A stretch of DNA of 64,000 nucleotides from Synechococcus sp. CBW1004 (GTDB lineage: Bacteria > Cyanobacteriota > Cyanobacteriia > PCC-6307 > Cyanobiaceae). The position numbers and the translations under genes are program-made. This document shows, piece after piece, positions 2,194 to 11,658 of the stretch. A model generated the notes under the pieces. It saw only the letters and a program-made list of their open reading frames with translations. It had not been told where the DNA came from and searched no databases. The first letter of the stretch is position 1; every line of letters starts with the position of its first letter. The DNA lies in contig NZ_CP060397.1 of the NCBI RefSeq assembly GCF_015840715.1, positions 3,368,686 through 3,432,685 of the forward strand, given 5' to 3'.

Positions 2194-5100
2194 ATGTCCC
2201 TGTCGGATAATTTCATCAAGCGGCCGGTCCTCACCACCGTCTGCAGCATCCTGATCGTGCTGGTGGGGCTGATTGCCATTCCCACCCTCTCGATCGAGAA
2301 TCTTCCCAACATCGCGCCGCCCCTGATTCAGGTGACGGCGAACTACGGCGGCGCCAACTCTCTGGTGACTGAGCAGGCCGTCACCAATCCGATCGAACAG
2401 CAGATCAACGGTGTGCCGGGGGCGAGCTTCATCTCGTCCACCAGCAACATGACCGGGAACAGTGTGATCTCGGTCTACTTCGATGAAGGCACTGATATCA
2501 ACATTGACCAGGTCAATGTTCAGAACCGTGTGTCACTGGCGATGCCGCAGCTGCCCCAGCAGGTGCAGGCGACCGGTGTGTCGGTGAGTCAGAGCACGCC
2601 GTCGATTCTGTTGGCCTATCAGGTCTCCTCCAGTAGCGGTCAGTTCGACGCCGCCTATCTCAATGGCCTGATCTACGAAAATCTCTACTACCAGCTCGGG
2701 CGGGTCCCGGGTGTGGCCACGGTCAGCCTGCTTGGAGGCAGCAACCCAGCCTATTGGTTGTTCGTCGACCCGGTGCGGCTCAGTGCCAACAACCTCACCG
2801 CCGATCAGGTGGTCACGGCTGTCAAGAGTCAGAACTTCGTCTCCGTCGGGGGCATCGTCGGTGGCCCGCCGGCCGGAGGAAACCAGCAATTCGCCTATCC
2901 AATTCTCGTCAAGGACAACGGCAATCTCGTCTCCATCAAGGAGCTCAATGACCTGATCGTCGGTCGCTCTCCTCAGGGCAATCTGCTGCGACTTCAGGAT
3001 GTGGGTCAGGCCACCTATGGCTTCAATTCTTTCGGCCAGGCAGCCGTCAGCAAGGAGGGATATCCGGCGATCACCGTGGCTGTCTTCCAGACTCCGGAGA
3101 GCAATGCCCTGGATGTTTCCGAGGCGGTGGTGGCTGTGATGAATCAGTTCCGCCAGGGCGTGCCGCCCGGCGTGACGGTGAATCAGATCTATAACATCGG
3201 TCAATTTATTGAATCTGCCGTCGACGGTGTCGTCGACGCCCTTGGCCTGGCGATCGTGCTGGTGCTGCTGATCCTGTACGTGTTCCTGCAGGACTGGCGG
3301 GCGACCGTGGTGCCCAGCCTGGCCATCCCGATCTCCCTCGTCGGCACCTTCGCCTTCATCAAGATCTTCGGCTTTTCGATCAATCAACTCACCTTGCTCG
3401 GTCTGGTGCTGGCCACCGGCCTGGTGGTCGATGACGCCATCGTCGTGATCGAGGCCGTCTCCAAGAACATCGAGAAGGGCATGCGTCCACGCCAGGCAGC
3501 CCTGGAGTGCATGGGCGAGCTGATCGGGGCCCTGATCGCTACGGCTCTGGTGCTGATGGCCGTGTTCGTGCCGGTGGCCTTTTATCCGGGCAGCATCGGC
3601 ATCATCTATCGCCAGTTCGCCCTGACGATCGCCTTCTCGATCGCCATCTCCGCCTTCAATGCGCTCACCTTCTCGCCGATGCTCTCGGCGTTGATCCTGC
3701 GCAATGAGAAAGCGCCACCGCCTGGGCGGGTGCTGGGCGCGATCGCGGGGCTGATCGTCGGCCTGGCCTTCGGACGCTTCAGTTCGGCCTCGTTCGGTAA
3801 CATCTCCTATCTCATTGGTGTGGTGCTGGGTGTGCTCGGCGGCGCAAATCTGCGCTGGGTGTTTGATCGCTTCAATGCCTTCTTCGCCCGCGTCGAGAAA
3901 GGGTACGCCGCTCTGATCAGTCTGCTGATTCGTCGTCGTCGTCTGATTCTGGCCGGCCTCGGTGGCGGCATCGTGCTCACAGCCATCGCCTTCACGGCCC
4001 TCCCCTCGGCCTTCATTCCCGAGGAGGATCAGGGTTATGGACTCGGCATCTACCAGCTCCAGAATGGTGCCTCACTCACCCAGACACAGCGTGTCGGCAT
4101 GGAGATCGCCAAGGTCCTCAATCAGGAGGAGGACATCATCGCGGGATCGGTGATCAGCGGCTACGGCTTCAATGGCACCAGCCCTGATCAGGGGGTGTTC
4201 TTCTATGGCTTCAAGCCGCTGGACGAGCGCAAGGGCAACGCCCAGAAGGCCCCGGCCATCGTGGCGCGTCTGAACCAGAAGTTCAGCACCCTCAGCGAGG
4301 CGACTGTGATCGCGGGACAACCCCCTGCGGTTCCGGGCTTCTCGGCGCAGGGGGGCTTCTACTTCCAGTTCAATGATGAGAGCAATGGCGGCTACAGCTT
4401 CGTGGAGCTCGATGAGCAGGCCAACAAGCTGGTCTCTGCGGGGAGGGCGACCGGTGCCTTCGGGTCTCTCTATACCCAGTTCATCCCGAGCGCCCCAGCA
4501 TTCGGTCTTGATGTCGATCGCTCGATCATGGGCGCCCTGAACATTGATTTCCAGGAGGCGATGAACACCATTGCCGTGCTGGCAGGCGGCAACTATTCCG
4601 GTCTCACCTATGAAAGTGGGCAGGTCCGCAATATCTACGTCCAGTCCCAGGCAGCCAATCGCAGCAAGCTGGAGGATATCCTCGCCTATTACGTCCGCAG
4701 TCGCGACGGCAAGATGGTGCAGGTGTCGGAATTCGCCAAGCCCGAACTCACCAGTGCACCCCCGATCATCAGCCATTACAACCTCTATCGCACCATCCTG
4801 GTTCAGGGTATTGAGGCCGCCGGTACAAGCTCAGGCCAGGCCCTCGACACGATTCAGGAGGTCTTCAAAAATCTCAACTTTAATAACATTGGCTATGCCT
4901 TTACCGGCCTGGCGGCCCTGCAGCTATCGGCTGGAAACGCCAGCGTTCTGGTGTTCGGGCTGGGCATTCTCGTGGTGTATCTGGTGCTTTCGGCCCAGTA
5001 TGAGAGCTATGTCACGCCTGTGATCATTCTGATGACCGTGCCCCTGGCGATGCTCGGGGCGCTGGTGTTTCTGGCGCTGCGATCGATCGATCTCAACATC

Positions 5101-5484
5101 TATGCCCAGGTGGGCCTGGTCACCCTGATCGGTCTGGCGGCCAAGAATGGCATCCTGATCGTGGAGGTGGCCGAGCAGCACATGCAGGCCGGCATGACCG
5201 CCACCGAGGCCGCCATTGCTTCGGCGGAATCGCGGCTTCGGCCGATTCTGATGACGGCCATTGCCGCTCTCGCCGGCTTCCTGCCCCTGGTGGTGGCCAG
5301 CACCGCGGGCGCCAACAGCCAGCAGTCGCTGGGCACCGTGATCTTCGGCGGCCTGTTGGTGGCCACCGTGTTGTCTCTCGGGGTGGTTCCACCCTTCTAT
5401 GTGGTGATCAAGGGGCTGGAGGAGCGGCTCTTCCCCGCCAGGCCGGAGGAGGAGCCCCTCCCCGGCGAATCGGGCGGGGTCTGA
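2194..5484 (+). CDS. RND multidrug efflux transporter permease (AcrB/HAE1 family)
   Basis: At 1096 residues this is a full-length inner-membrane proton/drug antiporter of the resistance-nodulation-division superfamily. The N-terminus (FIKRPVLTTVCSILIVLVG) is the typical first transmembrane helix. Twelve membrane segments fall in two blocks, each with a large periplasmic loop. The proton-relay Asp pair is at about residues 413-414 (GLVVDDAIVVIEAV), and the matching Lys is near residue 984 (AAKNGILIVEVAEQ). These correspond to the AcrB D407/D408 and K940 positions, so the pump looks functional. It lies directly behind the two adaptor genes. No outer-membrane channel gene is visible in the window. 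Confidence 0.95.
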   Translation: MSLSDNFIKRPVLTTVCSILIVLVGLIAIPTLSIENLPNIAPPLIQVTANYGGANSLVTEQAVTNPIEQQINGVPGASFISSTSNMTGNSVISVYFDEGTDINIDQVNVQNRVSLAMPQLPQQVQATGVSVSQSTPSILLAYQVSSSSGQFDAAYLNGLIYENLYYQLGRVPGVATVSLLGGSNPAYWLFVDPVRLSANNLTADQVVTAVKSQNFVSVGGIVGGPPAGGNQQFAYPILVKDNGNLVSIKELNDLIVGRSPQGNLLRLQDVGQATYGFNSFGQAAVSKEGYPAITVAVFQTPESNALDVSEAVVAVMNQFRQGVPPGVTVNQIYNIGQFIESAVDGVVDALGLAIVLVLLILYVFLQDWRATVVPSLAIPISLVGTFAFIKIFGFSINQLTLLGLVLATGLVVDDAIVVIEAVSKNIEKGMRPRQAALECMGELIGALIATALVLMAVFVPVAFYPGSIGIIYRQFALTIAFSIAISAFNALTFSPMLSALILRNEKAPPPGRVLGAIAGLIVGLAFGRFSSASFGNISYLIGVVLGVLGGANLRWVFDRFNAFFARVEKGYAALISLLIRRRRLILAGLGGGIVLTAIAFTALPSAFIPEEDQGYGLGIYQLQNGASLTQTQRVGMEIAKVLNQEEDIIAGSVISGYGFNGTSPDQGVFFYGFKPLDERKGNAQKAPAIVARLNQKFSTLSEATVIAGQPPAVPGFSAQGGFYFQFNDESNGGYSFVELDEQANKLVSAGRATGAFGSLYTQFIPSAPAFGLDVDRSIMGALNIDFQEAMNTIAVLAGGNYSGLTYESGQVRNIYVQSQAANRSKLEDILAYYVRSRDGKMVQVSEFAKPELTSAPPIISHYNLYRTILVQGIEAAGTSSGQALDTIQEVFKNLNFNNIGYAFTGLAALQLSAGNASVLVFGLGILVVYLVLSAQYESYVTPVIILMTVPLAMLGALVFLALRSIDLNIYAQVGLVTLIGLAAKNGILIVEVAEQHMQAGMTATEAAIASAESRLRPILMTAIAALAGFLPLVVASTAGANSQQSLGTVIFGGLLVATVLSLGVVPPFYVVIKGLEERLFPARPEEEPLPGESGGV

Positions 5485-5582
5485 GTTGTGTCTTCATCCA
5501 CCTGTTATCTCGTGTTGCCTGATTTCTGCCTTCACGCCGGCGGGTCAGCCGCTTCCGGCGAACATCTCGCACCACGCAGGCG

Positions 5583-6353
5583 ATGACTTACTGCATCGGC
5601 TACTGGCTTGAAAAGGGTCTGGTGCTCGCCTCGGATTCGCGCACGAATGCCGGGGTCGATTACATCTCCGCTTACAGCAAGATGCATGTGTTCCAGCCAT
5701 CCTCGGATCGGCTGTTCGTGCTTCTCGCCGCTGGCAGCCTTGCCACCACCCAGGCCGTGGTGAACTGGATCCGCCGCGATCTCGATCGACCTGCCGAGCT
5801 GGAGCATGGTGGCTCCAGGGATCTGCGCCACTGCGATTACCTGTTCGAGGCGACAGCCTATGTCGGCCGCGTCAGCGTGGCCGTTCAGAAGGAAAATGAG
5901 GCGGAACTGCGCGCAGCGGGTGCCAGCGGTGCCGCCTCCTTCCTGCTTGGCGGCCAGATCGGAAGTGAGCCCCACGGCCTGTACCTCATCTACCCCCAGG
6001 GCAACGCGATCATGGCGACGCCCGAAACCCCCTATCTGCAGATCGGTGAAAGCAAATATGGCAAACCTCCCCTCGATAACGTCGGCCACACCCATCTGTC
6101 CCTCGAGGATGCGGCCCGGCTCTGCCTCATCTCCGAGGTGCTCACCCAGCGTTCCAACCTCAGCGTCGGTCCGCCGTTCGAACTGGTGGTGATTCCCGCC
6201 GGCAGCCTGCGCATCGCCCAGAAGCTGCGGATCGAGGCGGATGACCCCGATCTCAGGGCCATGATCGAGATCTGGAGTGAGGCCCAGCGGGAGGCTCTGC
6301 ATCGTCTGCCCCAGTTGCCCTGGGAGCGCCAGCCCGAGGCTGAGGCCTCATGA
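5583..6353 (+). CDS. Anbu-type bacterial proteasome-like peptidase
   Basis: The 256-residue protein starts MTYCIGYWLEKGLVLASDSRTNAGVDYIS, the pattern of the Anbu (ancestral beta subunit) branch of N-terminal-nucleophile hydrolases related to HslV and the 20S proteasome beta subunit. After Met removal, Thr1 would be the nucleophile, with Asp17 and Lys32 close to the catalytic Asp17/Lys33 of HslV. No ATPase partner is encoded nearby, and the transglutaminase-like, ATP-grasp and alpha-E genes often linked to Anbu are absent. Instead the gene overlaps a glutaminase gene by an ATGA, indicating translational coupling. Family is strongly supported; the natural substrate is not known. Confidence 0.88.
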   Translation: MTYCIGYWLEKGLVLASDSRTNAGVDYISAYSKMHVFQPSSDRLFVLLAAGSLATTQAVVNWIRRDLDRPAELEHGGSRDLRHCDYLFEATAYVGRVSVAVQKENEAELRAAGASGAASFLLGGQIGSEPHGLYLIYPQGNAIMATPETPYLQIGESKYGKPPLDNVGHTHLSLEDAARLCLISEVLTQRSNLSVGPPFELVVIPAGSLRIAQKLRIEADDPDLRAMIEIWSEAQREALHRLPQLPWERQPEAEAS

Positions 6354-7351
6354 CGACCGACGCTCCCGGCTCCGTCACAGACTGGGTCTCCACCGGCCAC
6401 TTGCCGGGCGAGGAGGCCGTGAGGGAGCTGGTGGCGGAAGCCCATCGTCGCTTCTCTCCCGTGCAGGACTGCGAGGTGGCCCGCTACATCCCGGCTCTGG
6501 CGGCGGCTAACCCAGGCCACTTCGGCCTCTGTGTGGCCTCGACCGGCGGCCTGCTGTTCGAAGCGGGCGAATCGACCCAGCCCTTCAGCATTCAGAGCCT
6601 GTCGAAGCCGTTCCTGTTCGCCCTCCTCTGTCAGGCGATCGGTGAGGACGTCGCCCGCGCCAGACTGGGAGTGAACAGCACCGGTCTGCCCTTCAATTCG
6701 GTGCTGGCGGTGGAGCGCAGCGGAGAGGGGCTCTCCAATCCGATGGTGAATGCCGGTGCGATCGCGGCCACCAGCCTGGTGCCGGGTGACACCGCTGAGG
6801 CCAAGTGGCATTTCATCGAGGAGGGCTTCTCCCGTTTCGCCGGCCGGCAGCTGCAGGTCGATCAGGCGGTGTATGCCTCGGAGATCGCCTCAAACCGCCG
6901 CAACCTCGGCATCGCGACCCTGCTGGAGGAGCAGCAGCGCATCTGGTTTGACCCCGATGCCGCCACCGACCTCTATACCCGACAGTGCGCCCTGAGCGTC
7001 ACCGCCCGCGATCTCGCATTGATGGCCGCCACGCTCGCCAATGGTGGCTGTCAGCCGTGCAGCGGTGAGCGGGTGATCGAGCCGCTGATCTGCCAGCACG
7101 TGCTCGCGGTGATGGTGACCGCGGGGCTCTACGAAACCTCGGGCGATTGGCTCTATGACACCGGTCTGCCTGGCAAGAGCGGGGTGTCCGGCGGCATGAT
7201 CACGGTCTGCCCGGGCAAGGGTGGCCTGGCGACCTATTCGCCGCCGCTGGATGAGTCGGGCAACAGCGTGCGCGGTCAATTGACCGCCCGCTTTCTCTCG
7301 GAGCGCCTCGGCCTCAATCTGTTCGCCTCCCGGCCACTGGCACCGTTCTGA
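6350..7351 (+). CDS. glsA: glutaminase A
   Basis: Glutaminase of the serine-dependent beta-lactamase/transpeptidase fold, converting L-glutamine to L-glutamate and ammonia in the cytoplasm. The catalytic S-x-x-K motif is SLSK at residues 83-86 (FSIQSLSKPF), followed by the family motif NPMVNAGAIA and later GLPGKSGVSGGMI. The 333-residue length is slightly above the usual 305-310. Its ATG overlaps the TGA of the preceding Anbu-type peptidase gene. On the other side it converges with gltS, a glutamate/sodium symporter gene now interrupted by insertion sequences, so the locus seems to have handled glutamine and glutamate together. Confidence 0.95.
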   Translation: MTTDAPGSVTDWVSTGHLPGEEAVRELVAEAHRRFSPVQDCEVARYIPALAAANPGHFGLCVASTGGLLFEAGESTQPFSIQSLSKPFLFALLCQAIGEDVARARLGVNSTGLPFNSVLAVERSGEGLSNPMVNAGAIAATSLVPGDTAEAKWHFIEEGFSRFAGRQLQVDQAVYASEIASNRRNLGIATLLEEQQRIWFDPDAATDLYTRQCALSVTARDLALMAATLANGGCQPCSGERVIEPLICQHVLAVMVTAGLYETSGDWLYDTGLPGKSGVSGGMITVCPGKGGLATYSPPLDESGNSVRGQLTARFLSERLGLNLFASRPLAPF

Positions 7352-7358
7352 ATCGCCC

Positions 7359-7730
7359 TCAGACCCGGTGCAGGAAGAACGGGATCAGCACGGCGTTGAG
7401 CAGATCGATGAAGAAGGCCGACACGAGCGGCAGCACGATGAAGGCCTTCGGAGAGGGGCCGAACCGCTGGGTCACCGCGGTCATGTTGGCCATGGCGGTG
7501 GGGGTGGAGCCCAGGGTGAAACCGCTGAAGCCGGCGGCGATCACAGCGGCGTCATAGGTGCCGCCCAGGAGAGGGAACACCAGCAGCATGTTGATCGCCA
7601 GCGCCAGGAGGAACTGGGCCAGCAGGATCAGCAGTAGTGGGCCCGCCAGCCCCACCAGGGTCCAGAACTGGATCGTCATCAGCGACATCGCCAGGAAGGC
7701 ACCCAGGGAGATCTCGGCGATCAGGTCTAG
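7359..7730 (-). pseudogene. gltS: gltS sodium/glutamate symporter, C-terminal part (split by IS insertion)
   Basis: This is the 3' part of a glutamate:sodium symporter gene, encoding LDLIAEISLGAFLAMSLM and later membrane helices ending FIDLLNAVLIPFFLHRV. The homology stops exactly at the CTAG at 7727-7730, where an IS5-type element begins. The first part of the gene is at 10773-11658 on the same strand. Joining the halves at one CTAG gives an uninterrupted frame (PSL then DLIAEIS). The protein should be non-functional as it stands, because the last helices are separated from the rest. The coding sequence shows no other damage, so the disruption is probably recent. Confidence 0.9.
7727..7730. 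repeat. CTAG target-site copy 1
   Basis: Left copy of the CTAG tetranucleotide at the border between the gltS 3' part and the IS5-type element. Identical copies lie at 8962-8965 and 10773-10776. Confidence 0.85.
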
Positions 7731-7766
7731 GGAAGCTCTGATCAAGACCGGGAATTGAGCGCAAGC

Positions 7767-7792
7767 GTGTCTCATTCTCGCCAATGAGACAC
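7767..7792. repeat. 9-bp inverted repeat inside the IS5-type element
   Basis: GTGTCTCAT at 7767-7775 and ATGAGACAC at 7784-7792 form a perfect 9-bp stem with an 8-base loop, in the non-coding left end of the element downstream of its transposase gene. No T-run follows on either strand. It could end transcription or shield the element from outside transcription. Confidence 0.55.
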
Positions 7793-7919
7793 AAGTGGGG
7801 TATTTTGTCCTTGGCTACTCGCCAGGTGCTCCAATCCAGGGCCTGACTGGCTTATTTCTCGTGAGTTCCCCGATCATTTTTGGCTGCTCACCCTCAAGAT
7901 GGCACACTTATTCTGTCAT

Positions 7920-8903
7920 TTACGCTGTAGAAGGACAACGTTCGCGCACCATCCAGAGATTGGCGAGGGCAAACAGCATCGTCAGCTTGAGGTTGTTCTT
8001 GCGGATGCCTCGGTAGAAGACCTTCCGAAATCCAAACTGGCACTTGATGATCCGAAATGGATGCTCCACCTTTGCCCTGACATGTGCTTTCGCCGCCTCC
8101 ATCAGATCCAGCAGTCTTCCCTCTGGGGTGTCCGGTAGAACTCGGCGCTGTCCGGGCTTCATGGCGATGCGCATCTCTGCTTCGCAGTCCTTGAACGCCT
8201 CACGCTTTTCGATGCCGATGTGGCCAGAGTCGCCGTAGATCACGCGTTCCTCGCCATGGACGCGATCGGGTGCCGTGTTCAGCTCATGGACGTTGGCAGC
8301 CGTGCTCACCACGGAATGGACCAGACCCGAGGCTGCATCCACACCGATGTGGCACCGCATCCCAAAGAACCACTGGTTGCCTTTGGCCACCGAGTGCATT
8401 TCAGGATCCCGCTCGCCCGTCTTGTTCTTGGTTGAACTGGGAGCGTTGATGATTGTGGCATCGAGGATCGTACCCTCCTTAAGCATCACGCCCTTCTCCC
8501 GCAGGCTCTGGTTCACCGTCTCCAGGATCTGCTCTGCTATCCGATTCTCTTCCAGGAGGTGGCGGAAGTTCAGGATCGTCGTCTCGTCAGGGATCCGGTC
8601 CTCAACCATGTCGATCCCAGCAAAGCGGCGGAAGCAGGGGGTATCGATCAGCATCTCCTCCATCAAGGGATCGGAAAGCGTGAACCACTGCTGCAGCAGG
8701 TGGATGCGCAGCATCACCTCCAGCGGAAACGGTGGGCGCCCGCCCTTGGCAGAAGGCCTGTGGTACACAGGCGAAATCAAGGCCAGGAAAGGATCCCAGG
8801 GCACTGTGGCTTCCATCTCATCGAGGAAGCGCTGCCGGCGCGTTTTCTTCTTGGCGTAGGTCTGCTCGTAGTCCGTGAAACCCAACTGGAGGGGGGCCGC
8901 CAT
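7920..8903 (-). CDS. IS5-family transposase
   Basis: A 327-residue DDE transposase of the IS5 family. The N-terminal part contains LISPVYHRPSAKGGRPPFPLEVMLRIHLLQQWF, typical of the IS5 group. Catalytic acidic blocks are seen at LDATIINAP, VIYGDSGHIG and the C-terminal VEHPFRIIKCQFGFRKVFYRGIRKN region. No stop or frameshift is visible, so the enzyme is probably active or was until recently. It reads in the same direction as the gltS gene it interrupts. Confidence 0.95.
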   Translation of the reverse strand: MAAPLQLGFTDYEQTYAKKKTRRQRFLDEMEATVPWDPFLALISPVYHRPSAKGGRPPFPLEVMLRIHLLQQWFTLSDPLMEEMLIDTPCFRRFAGIDMVEDRIPDETTILNFRHLLEENRIAEQILETVNQSLREKGVMLKEGTILDATIINAPSSTKNKTGERDPEMHSVAKGNQWFFGMRCHIGVDAASGLVHSVVSTAANVHELNTAPDRVHGEERVIYGDSGHIGIEKREAFKDCEAEMRIAMKPGQRRVLPDTPEGRLLDLMEAAKAHVRAKVEHPFRIIKCQFGFRKVFYRGIRKNNLKLTMLFALANLWMVRERCPSTA

Positions 8904-8961
8904 CCGCTGCCAGTCTCATTATTGGAACTGTACTGATTCTATCGGGTTTTTCAGGGGTTCC

Positions 8962-8965
8962 CTAG
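8962..8965. repeat. CTAG target-site copy 2, shared by two IS elements
   Basis: The CTAG between the right inverted repeat of the IS5-type element and the left inverted repeat of the IS1182-type element. It acts as a flank for both, which implies that one element inserted into the CTAG produced or used by the other. Confidence 0.8.
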
Positions 8966-10772
8966 GAGTTTGTTGCCCATAGAGCAGCAATCCTGGCTGC
9001 GACGAATCATCTGCTGAGGTGAACCGCTGAGACGGTGCTAAGGCACGTTTCTTCTGGTGAGCGTGCCCATCGCACGTAGGCCTGAGCCGGCTCTGGCCGC
9101 TGTGGCCAGTGCCGCTGCCTCTTATCCCGGTGCCTCCGCCATTGCCTGCTGCAGTGATCGCCTGCACCTGAACAACTTGAGCAGGTTGTGCGTGGCAGCG
9201 ATCAGGTGCCATTCACCATTCACCTTCTCCAGCCCCCTCAGCAGGAAGCGCCGTAGGCCCCGCGCTTCCTTGATCTGTCCGTTCACCGGCTCCACGATCG
9301 CCTCCTTGCGCTGGGCGTAGATCCTTGATCCCTTCTTGCTTCTGATCTTGCGGGCCATGAGGGCTTTGGCGTCGGCATCCTTGGGCATTGGGCCGCGTTT
9401 CGGCGGTAGTGGCTGGCCGTGCGGCAGGCGGCCGGTGGCGATGTAGGCATCAATACCCTGATCCACGCAGGCCTTGGCATTTTCATCAGTCCAGTAGCCC
9501 GCATCCATCGTCATCACCGCGGGCAGTGCACCAGCGCTTGTCGCGATGCGATCCAGCATGGGCTCCAGGTGCTCGAAGTCCGGTGGCTGGTTGCTCACGC
9601 CAACCGCCACGATCACCTGATGGTCGCGATCGACAGCCAGCTGGCAGTTGTAGCCCTGGATGAAGTGGCCATCGGTTTTCATGAGGTGACTGTCTGGGTC
9701 AGTGAAATTGCGCTGGGTTGCCTTGGTTGGAGTGCCATCAGCCTTTCTCGACAGGCCCCGCCTGGGCATCGCATCAGACGCAAGTGGCTCCAGATCCGGT
9801 GGTTCGATGCCGGCGCTCTCGGCGGCATCGATCGCCTGCTCCCTCGCAGCTTTGGCCTTGGCCGTTGCCGCCTCGTCTTTCCTGTTCAGCGCGGCCTGCT
9901 CCGCTGCCGGTGCAGCGGCCTCTCGGGCAGCCGTTGCTTTGGCCCTGGCCTCTTCTGCTTCCTCCTGGCGCTGACGCGCAGTTGCTGCTGCGGTCTCCGC
10001 TTCCATCTCCTTACGGGCCTGGCGAATCCTGGCCAGGCGGTCCTGACGCCGACGCAGTTCATCGGGAAGATCACTGCCGCGGTTGCCCTTGCCGTAGCGC
10101 CGATCCTCCTGGGCATGAAGGATCTCGGCCTTACGCATCAAGGCGTTGATCTCCTTCTCCAGCTGCTTCTCCGCTTTGAGCATCCGCTCGTGGCTCATGG
10201 CCTTGTGCTTGCTGGCATTGGCCTGCACCTTGGTGCCATCCAGGGCCACATGGCCCAGGCTCACCATGCCGGCCTTCTGGCACAGCCGCAGGATCTGAAC
10301 GAACAGATCGCTCAGGGCATCAAGGTTGCGACGGCGGAATTCACTGATGCGACTGTGATCCGGTTGCTGGTTACCGGTCAGCACCCGGAACGCCAGGTCC
10401 TCGTAGCAGGCGCGCTCGATCTTGCGGGAGGAGACGATGCCCACGCAATAGGCGTAGAGCAGCAAGAGCGTCATCATCCGCGGATCAAACCCTTTCTCCC
10501 CACGAGGATCCTTGGCCTGAGCGGGAATCAGGACCTGTGAGAGATCAAGCTCATCCACCAGATCCAGCAGGAAATACACCTGGTGGTCATCCGAGAGCCA
10601 GTCACTGGGTGATGGCGGCAGCAGGGTTGTCTGCTCCGGCTGCCAGGGACGGAAGGACTTGGGCTTCTGCATGCCCCATTGTCTCAGCCAGAACCATTGC
10701 AGTCACTGGGATCTGGGCAGATTCAGGGGCGTCTGTGGGGAGATCGGGGCGGGATCTACGCGCGACACGCTC
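8966..10772 (-). mobile_element. IS1182-family insertion sequence (about 1807 bp)
   Basis: The element starts GAGTTTGTTGCCCATAGAGC at 8966 and, read inward from 10772 on the minus strand, GAGCGTGTCGCGCGTAGATC. These terminal inverted repeats agree at 14 of 20 positions. Both ends are flanked by CTAG (8962-8965 and 10773-10776). It encodes one intact transposase on the minus strand, with about 155 non-coding bases at the left end and 100 at the right end. Confidence 0.83.
9122..10672 (-). CDS. IS1182-family transposase
   Basis: A 516-residue DDE transposase. The N-terminal half has the IS1182 pattern (LSDDHQVYFLLDLVDELDLS, PRMMTLLLLYAYCVGIVSSRKIERACYEDLAFRVLTG, PDHSRISEFRRR). Catalytic acidic residues appear in HVALDGTKVQANAS, VMTMDAGYWTDENAKACVDQGIDAYIATG and IVEPVNGQIKEARGLRRFLLRG. 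Between the first and second blocks, roughly residues 165-290, is a long Ala/Glu/Lys/Arg-rich stretch predicted to be coiled coil. The frame is intact, so the element may still be mobile. Confidence 0.94.
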   Translation of the reverse strand: MQKPKSFRPWQPEQTTLLPPSPSDWLSDDHQVYFLLDLVDELDLSQVLIPAQAKDPRGEKGFDPRMMTLLLLYAYCVGIVSSRKIERACYEDLAFRVLTGNQQPDHSRISEFRRRNLDALSDLFVQILRLCQKAGMVSLGHVALDGTKVQANASKHKAMSHERMLKAEKQLEKEINALMRKAEILHAQEDRRYGKGNRGSDLPDELRRRQDRLARIRQARKEMEAETAAATARQRQEEAEEARAKATAAREAAAPAAEQAALNRKDEAATAKAKAAREQAIDAAESAGIEPPDLEPLASDAMPRRGLSRKADGTPTKATQRNFTDPDSHLMKTDGHFIQGYNCQLAVDRDHQVIVAVGVSNQPPDFEHLEPMLDRIATSAGALPAVMTMDAGYWTDENAKACVDQGIDAYIATGRLPHGQPLPPKRGPMPKDADAKALMARKIRSKKGSRIYAQRKEAIVEPVNGQIKEARGLRRFLLRGLEKVNGEWHLIAATHNLLKLFRCRRSLQQAMAEAPG

Positions 10773-10776
10773 CTAG
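10773..10776. repeat. CTAG target-site copy 3
   Basis: The CTAG between the right end of the IS1182-type element and the 5' part of gltS. The original gene had a single CTAG here, within the codons for Ser-Leu-Asp. Confidence 0.85.
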
Positions 10777-11658
10777 CGAGGGGGTGCGCGACGGCCAGCG
10801 GAAGGGCATCCAGGCCGCTCTTCGAGGCAAGAGGTTGCTCAGCAGAATGCCGACGATCAGGCAGGGCACGAACAGGGGCAGAAACAGCCCGAGATCACGG
10901 ATCAGTTCCTGCAGGATCGAGCCCAGGATGATGCAGATGTGGATCGCCAGCACCGCGGAGAGGAACTCCTCGGATCCGATCAGCTTGCCGCTGGTGGAGG
11001 GCGGCTGCGCATCCGTCTCGGCGACAGCACCGGACGATTGTGGAAGGGATTCGCTCTGGCGGGCTGGCAGGGCCAGGCGATGGCGGCGGATCAGGAAGCG
11101 GGCGATCGGGCCGCCGCTGGCGCTGGCCAGGATCAGTCCGAAGGTGGCCGCGGCGATGCCGATCTCCAGCGCGTTGGCGACACCGTGTTCGGAGGCGAAC
11201 TGCGGTGCCCAGGCGATGGTGGTGCCGTGGCCGCCGATCAGTGAGAGAGTGCCCACCAGAAGTCCGGAGGCCGGCGGCAGGCCGCTCCAGCGAGCCAGGG
11301 TGATGCCCACCAGGTTCTGCGCGAGCATCAGCACGATCGTCAGCACCAGCAGCACCACCAGCGCGCGACCGCCGCGTCGCAGGTCCGCGAAGCTGGCGTT
11401 CAGGCCCACCGTGGTGAAGAAGTAGACGAGCAGCAGATCGCGGGCGCGCATCCCGAAGTTGATCTCCAGCCCGAAGATCAGATGCAGAACCGTGATCACC
11501 AGCGCCACGAGCAGACCACCGCTGACCGGTTCGGGAATGGTGTACTCGCGCAGGAATCGCAGACGGCGGTTGAGGGTCTTCCCGAGAAAGAGAACCAGAA
11601 TCCCGAGTGTGACTGTCAGAAAGGATGCGATCTGGATCTCACCATCGACAACATTCAT
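10773..11658 (-). pseudogene. gltS: gltS sodium/glutamate symporter, N-terminal part (split by IS insertion)
   Basis: This is the 5' part of a glutamate:sodium symporter gene. The protein begins MNVVDGEIQIASFLTVTLGI and contains family motifs: TIPEPVSGGLL, VYFFTTVGLNASFADL, IGGHGTTIAWAP and a second repeat ending FVPCLIVGILLSNLLP. After Leu295 the frame enters the IS1182-type element and stops after a few foreign residues. With the segment at 7359-7726 it would form a 417-residue protein, close to the 401 residues of E. coli GltS. The gene lies next to and converges with glsA, which makes glutamate. Transcription from its own promoter would still produce a truncated membrane protein. Confidence 0.9.

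Follow-up and report, generated by a model that had tools for sequence, protein, structure and literature searches.

Why should a gene for Anbu (‘ancestral beta subunit’), a proteasome homolog, lie directly beside a gene for glutaminase in the genome of Synechococcus sp. CBW1004, and what might the two products do together? The stretch of DNA in which the arrangement was noticed, referred to below as the window, is 64,000 nucleotides long. The Anbu structure has been solved several times, as the Foldseek matches described below illustrate; substrates and interactors of Anbu are named as a key task in passages of two papers that found no activity (PMC6376114 and PMC5666114), and passages of the former record that YbAnbu, HyAnbu and PaAnbu cleaved none of three standard proteasome substrates. 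The same two sources, citing Iyer 2009 and Valas & Bourne 2008, describe Anbu in the passages concerned as residing mainly in an operon with a circularly permuted ATP-grasp protein, an alpha-E protein and a transglutaminase. No paper on a link between Anbu and glutaminase appeared among the open-access papers listed, and the word ‘glutaminase’ occurs in PMC6376114 only in the title of a reference.

The first of the two genes is intact as read from its open reading frame, and a sequence search of the PDB with its product returned five matches at E 0.001 (the best to 5loy_A, E 3.4e-67), all of which are Anbu by their entry titles. Thr1, Asp17 and Lys32 are present, with the threonine directly following the start methionine, and are invariant across an alignment of 22 Anbu proteins; the first-pass annotation, which had described an Anbu-family peptidase with a complete set of these three residues, is borne out on both counts. 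In a Foldseek search with an AlphaFold2 monomer model of the protein (mean pLDDT 87.3), ranks 1-31 of the best 50 rows are solved Anbu chains, and the nearest folds beyond Anbu are proteasome subunits. A C-terminal helix H5 has been described for Anbu (in passages of PMC8665760), and the model, which places a helix at residues 222-241, predicts the combination of proteasome-like fold and helix H5 by which an Anbu protein is recognized. Pfam and NCBIfam profile searches of the same protein gave no match at E 0.001, and a search of the strain’s own genome with the Pfam Proteasome model (PF00227) likewise gave none; the latter absence is uninformative, because an Anbu of this type scores below that model. 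The genome, a single contig of 3,672,318 bases, yields two Anbu matches, which are the gene in the window (termed Anbu-A here) and one copy of a second paralog, Anbu-B.

The neighboring gene encodes what is, by its family assignment, a predicted glutaminase (GlsA), with scores above the curated cut-offs of both PF04960 (331.8 bits versus 27, E 4e-99) and NF009020 (413.7 versus 395). It is one of three glutaminase-like matches in the genome, and its best solved match is the E. coli glutaminase YbaS (GlsA1; 1u60, E 1.1e-66). The E. coli gene, in contrast to glsA in the window, presumably lies beside the transporter gene ybaT and not beside a proteasome homolog. The features of the locus are collected in the table; the ends of its IS5-family element were placed from the CTAG copies and from a partial terminal repeat identified visually.

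Table. Features of the anbuA-glsA locus, in window positions.
Feature	Positions	Strand	Basis and remarks
RND efflux permease gene	2194..5484	+	ends 98 nt before anbuA; upstream neighbor here, no conserved partner
anbuA (Anbu, ancestral beta subunit, paralog A)	5583..6353	+	256 aa; PDB matches, catalytic residues, model, tree clade A
ATGA overlap (anbuA stop, glsA start)	6350..6353	+	ORF coordinates
glsA (predicted glutaminase)	6350..7351	+	333 aa, intact; profile matches
gltS 3' part (sodium/glutamate symporter)	7359..7730	-	profile matches; severed by insertions
IS5-family element	7731..8961	-	1231 bp; transposase ORF 7920-8903; CTAG at 7727-7730 and 8962-8965
IS1182-family element	8966..10772	-	1807 bp; transposase ORF 9122-10672; ends from CTAG at 8962-8965 and 10773-10776
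gltS 5' part	10773..11658	-	profile matches; severed by insertions

Across 149 genomes (the strain’s own and those of its relatives), Anbu was matched in 95 and glutaminase in 81; full-length matches at least 70% identical to the Anbu of the window, which are counted as Anbu-A, came only from the same genus and family among the matches listed. When loci with an identical Anbu protein are merged, there are 35 distinct and uninterrupted Anbu-A genes, and directly downstream of 28 of them, on the same strand, lies glsA (cut by a contig end in one case, L037), with the order anbuA-glsA in every pair. The rest consist of five genes that have no glsA directly downstream (L035, L039, L040, L049 and L050), one followed by a glsA remnant only (L032), and one for which the contig ends inside glsA (L036). 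Two broken copies of Anbu-A stand outside this count: L041, with a stop at codon 12 and a glsA about 6 kb away that also carries a stop, and the fragmentary L084, with no glsA in the stretch examined around it. Scarcity of Anbu-glsA adjacency in close relatives had been named in advance as the observation that would speak against the pairing; with 28 of 35 genes adjacent, the opposite was found. At the same time, because glsA is missing beside five Anbu-A genes and reduced to a remnant beside a sixth, the peptidase is not strictly dependent on the glutaminase.

The gene on the other side of anbuA varies by lineage, being an RND gene, a LysM-domain gene, a gene of about 330 codons or a set of divergent genes (as delimited by a custom ORF caller). 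Since glsA stays while this neighbor varies, the pair has been kept while its surroundings changed: Anbu and glsA are conserved as a unit, with both genes intact and their adjacency retained in most relatives that have Anbu-A. It might be supposed that the adjacency is simply inherited synteny that has no function, given that all of the pairs fall within one family and that many of the genomes are closely related. That supposition was already disfavoured and is very unlikely, both because of the differing upstream neighbors and because it takes three changes on the tree to account for the Anbu-A genes that have no glsA beside them (of which the well-supported branches force one only). A simple count of dN/dS in seven pairs of close loci gave 0.06-0.18 over the first 248 codons of anbuA and 0-0.19 over glsA, values by which the two sequences look to be under purifying selection.

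Within the genus, a hand count over 42 genomes found both genes in 24, Anbu-A only in 3, this glsA only in 2 and neither in 13 (Fisher p 1.9e-6 for co-presence, uncorrected for kinship). In that table G001, in which both genes are interrupted, and G033, in which glsA is cut by a contig end, were scored as having both; G032, with its glsA remnant, was scored as Anbu-A only; and G012 was scored as glsA only, with its glsA at a contig start, so that an Anbu gene may have been cut off. Among 29 genomes from other cyanobacterial families of the same class that carry both Anbu and glutaminase, no listed pair lies close together, many of these assemblies being fragmented such that a pair spanning a contig end would be missed. 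A wider sample of the phylum, in which Anbu was matched in 56 of 386 genomes, concerns Anbu only and says nothing on pairing.

The ATGA overlap in the window, described in the first-pass annotation as a sign of translational coupling, is present, with both reading frames in place. Elsewhere, ATG or GTG starts would permit a four-base overlap in L020, L025, L030, L038, L043, L051 and L055, which together with the window make 8 of the 28 pairs, and L020, L025, L051 and L055 offer later glsA starts as well as the overlapping one. A TTG start would give the overlap in two further pairs (L031 and L047), and in the remaining pairs a plausible glsA start lies 3 to 63 positions past the Anbu stop. Because the overlap is possible in only this minority, translational coupling is a local state and not a conserved feature of the pair, and as a shared trait it does not hold up. 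No fusion of Anbu and GlsA was seen among the pairs read. The two genes are likely to be co-transcribed, and the locus is probably a two-gene operon that joins a lineage-specific Anbu paralog to a glutaminase.

Close linkage of a gene for a protease-like protein with a gene for an enzyme, in an order (anbuA-glsA) that is the same in all 28 pairs, might also be expected if Anbu-A were to control GlsA by degrading or trimming it, so that enzyme and regulator would be encoded together. A dedicated regulator would not be expected to occur where its target gene is missing, as Anbu-A does in five loci, and this account appears extremely improbable.

The usual Anbu partners had been reported as missing, a statement that is correct for the locus and incorrect for the genome. 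Pfam and NCBIfam scans of the neighbors of Anbu-A found no ATP-grasp, alpha-E or transglutaminase gene; all three nonetheless sit together elsewhere on the chromosome with no Anbu beside them (G000:C1:2,015,646-2,019,091, equivalent to L126:5647-9092; the ATP-grasp and transglutaminase-like genes were identified by tblastn only), some 64 kb distant from Anbu-B and 1.36 Mb distant from Anbu-A. Twelve genomes of the family in which Anbu was not matched likewise gave an alpha-E match, so that the two components of the classical system can be separated. The canonical Anbu operon and the locus in the window thus share a protein family, a fold, a set of catalytic residues and, by family assignment, a setting of glutamine or amide chemistry; they differ in that the canonical genes are replaced as partners of Anbu-A by glsA.

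Beyond the family, six of 24 Anbu loci in other cyanobacterial families have ATP-grasp and alpha-E genes clustered nearby (with domains scanned on L111). Other surroundings were also encountered: in one cyanobacterium (L107:4065-7435) a gene for DUF2126, a putative amidoligase, lies directly upstream of Anbu, and in two related cyanobacteria (L102:6341-9267 and L104:6653-9582) uvrB overlaps the start of Anbu by four bases. On plasmids, 26 records matched Anbu, all at less than 60% identity; eight of these were inspected, and five carry annotated features, of which three display the canonical order, those of Azospirillum and Acidithiobacillus differ, and none includes a glutaminase among its features. 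On the Acidithiobacillus caldus plasmid mpAca1.1 (L133:3278-6765), Anbu, listed there as a hypothetical protein, adjoins glnL-ntrC, with glnA about 5 kb away.

The probable origin of the pair is indicated by Anbu-B, a parent-like paralog found in the same family and 55-66% identical to Anbu-A. An hrcA-cluster gene lies directly upstream of Anbu-B in 32 of 32 distinct loci (the HrcA domain itself was scanned on one representative). At L073:7048-8786 Anbu-B is found directly downstream of hrcA, the gene for the heat-shock repressor, and in many loci the two genes make a one-base contact; the same arrangement, with hrcA directly upstream of Anbu, recurs once (L105) among the 24 loci of other families. 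Downstream of Anbu-B, glsA (L059) or its degraded remains (L057 and L058) occur in only 3 of the 32 loci, such that the regular partner of Anbu-B is hrcA, whereas that of Anbu-A is glsA. In a tree of 76 Anbu proteins (23 of the 99 rows having been dropped by choice for brevity, L057 included), Anbu-A forms a clade with SH-aLRT support of 99, nested among Anbu-B rows through a joining branch with a value of 85; long branches meet in this tree, so that the place of a third clade, Anbu-C, and the root of Anbu-A plus Anbu-B are unsure.

A tree of 30 glsA rows, rooted on a distant glutaminase, contains the same main groups as the Anbu-A tree when the two are compared by eye, and the glsA of L059 branches outside those of the other family members. 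The latter position is expected if the order hrcA-Anbu-glsA preceded the duplication, and we infer from it that such an order may have existed, the root in question being a single long branch. Because glsA or its remains are found behind Anbu-B in three loci, the Anbu-A/glsA pair is probably the product of a duplication, within the family, of an hrcA-linked Anbu.

Anbu-C, the third paralog, is only 40-43% identical to Anbu-A, has other partners and is carried alongside it in many genomes, while an Anbu search of the window’s own genome found none. A transglutaminase-like gene lies directly upstream of Anbu-C in seven of eight loci, and an N-formylglutamate-amidohydrolase-like gene lies nearby in six of the eight (with domains scanned on L087). 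At L087:4926-8232 the run consists of a transglutaminase-like gene, an N-formylglutamate-amidohydrolase-like gene, a second transglutaminase-like gene and Anbu-C. Contexts of this type raise the idea that Anbu-A is not a peptidase at all, and instead an amidase or isopeptidase for gamma-glutamyl bonds on whose product GlsA acts, with one chemistry common to the transglutaminase, N-formylglutamate amidohydrolase and glutaminase settings. Judged by family, the neighbors of Anbu in the canonical operon and in two of the three paralog settings act on amides of glutamate or glutamine. Ntn hydrolases include non-peptide amidases, and Anbu need not be a peptidase (as put in passages of the Y. bercovieri paper, PMC6376114). 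However, hrcA, the constant partner of Anbu-B, does not fit, and the folds nearest to the model after Anbu itself are those of proteasome subunits; we judge the idea decidedly unlikely. A broader version, also unlikely, would see in Anbu an enzyme whose basic activity is to hydrolyze the amide bonds of glutamine or of gamma-glutamyl compounds, and whose paralogs in this picocyanobacterial family split among three settings (one with glutaminase, one with transglutaminase and N-formylglutamate-amidohydrolase-like genes and one with hrcA), with Anbu-A and GlsA forming a two-step route of nitrogen release. If this version is true, a proteasome homolog would be feeding a glutaminase, and Anbu would gain a first physiological class of substrate.

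The surroundings of glsA on its far side are also informative. In the window, a gltS gene that is convergent with glsA adjoins the pair, and the whole had been proposed to form a glutamine/glutamate module. In this genome the module is not intact: two insertion sequences, lying side by side, interrupt gltS, of which a search found no further copy, and the IS5-family element is present in at least 24 nearly identical copies, that of the window included (a count made with a query starting 15 bases inside the element, and with 40 of 105 candidate places scored). The proposal fares better in the relatives, where 15 of the 18 pairs with at least 1.1 kb of sequence downstream of glsA have a gltS no more than 2 kb away (counting the broken copy of the window). 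The gene adjoins the pair in convergent orientation in the window, L033 and L034; it is co-directional and downstream in 11 pairs, adjacent in L051 and separated by one or two ORFs in the other 10; and L055 has a gltS fragment on the upstream side of anbuA, right where the examined stretch ends. No gltS was found near the pair in L038 (for which 1.1 kb downstream was examined), L043 or L047. The convergent and co-directional kinds are only 47-51% identical and occur in different lineages, and this recurrence of two dissimilar gltS types near the pair is the best sign that favours a role in glutamine or glutamate metabolism.

The control of the pair offers a different perspective. A consensus scan of positions 5380-7500 found no promoter-like site, and an exact NtcA site (GTAN8TAC) is absent from the region of up to 300 nt that precedes anbuA in each of 58 rows, the window and duplicates included, a few of which offer less than 300 nt; in view of that absence, nitrogen control via NtcA was rejected. 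An exact CRP-type palindrome, GTGA-N6-TCAC, is absent upstream of anbuA in the window and starts 76-78 nt upstream of it in 10 of 36 distinct upstream regions, all of one lineage; the rate of this motif over all DNA examined, the ten included, is 0.011 per 300 nt, and the ten regions are related to one another. The palindrome is found in L042 (upstream of position 8001) and in nine other regions, and its inner bases vary. The cyanobacterial CRP consensus has been given, in passages of PMC2633013, as TGTGAN6TCACA with a -10 box about 22 bp downstream. In L042 a -10-like TAGCCT begins 29 nt after the palindrome, and the fit to the described spacing is therefore inexact.

These observations bear on what we consider to be the main rival to a nitrogen-salvage role, namely that the two genes share regulation only, being expressed together in response to a single stress, be it carbon, night or nitrogen, while their products act on unrelated substrates. 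It would accommodate the persistence of Anbu-A in the five of 35 loci that have no glsA and the degradation of glsA beside the hrcA-linked Anbu in two others, and the palindrome hints, in its one lineage, at cAMP-type rather than nitrogen control. Set against it are the two dissimilar gltS types near the pair, and the occurrence of Anbu-C, too, near enzymes of glutamine or glutamate chemistry; shared regulation alone is, on balance, somewhat unlikely.

The explanation that we favor, tentatively and at slightly less than even chances, is that anbuA and glsA are co-transcribed and serve a single nitrogen-salvage pathway. Anbu-A, as an N-terminal-nucleophile hydrolase of the Anbu fold, would cut peptide or amide bonds in compounds that contain glutamine or gamma-glutamyl groups; GlsA would convert the freed glutamine to glutamate and ammonia; and a GltS-type carrier, where intact, would move glutamate across the membrane. 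Several findings pull against nitrogen salvage. Its second enzyme is missing beside the five solitary Anbu-A genes, reduced to a remnant at L032 and degraded behind Anbu-B in L057 and L058. In 11 of the 15 pairs that have gltS, either one or two ORFs intervene or (in L055) gltS lies on the far side of anbuA, and in the strain’s own genome it is broken. To these may be added the lack of an exact NtcA site, the failure of YbAnbu, HyAnbu and PaAnbu to cleave the standard proteasome substrates (PMC6376114), and the setting of the parent paralog, whose constant partner, hrcA, shows no obvious connection with glutamine.

Outside of the cyanobacteria, connections between Anbu and nitrogen are hinted at by the behavior of Pseudomonas putida under limitation, by predicted sigma54 regulons and by the glnL-ntrC neighborhood in A. 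caldus. The ‘proteasome-type protease’ COG of those regulons is taken here to be Anbu. That COG appears in predicted sigma54 regulons of Proteobacteria in passages of PMC12316311, and Anbu is described as raised in nitrogen-limited P. putida in passages of PMC6376114 and PMC5666114 that cite Hervas 2008.

Taken together, the analysis suggests that Anbu-A is an extra copy of Anbu, placed beside a glutaminase, and that its role lies in recycling nitrogen from glutamine and not within the customary Anbu operon. An Anbu paralog that is found outside that operon, and kept beside a well-understood enzyme, provides a concrete hypothesis for its substrate, and that hypothesis comes accompanied by natural variants in which one partner is missing.
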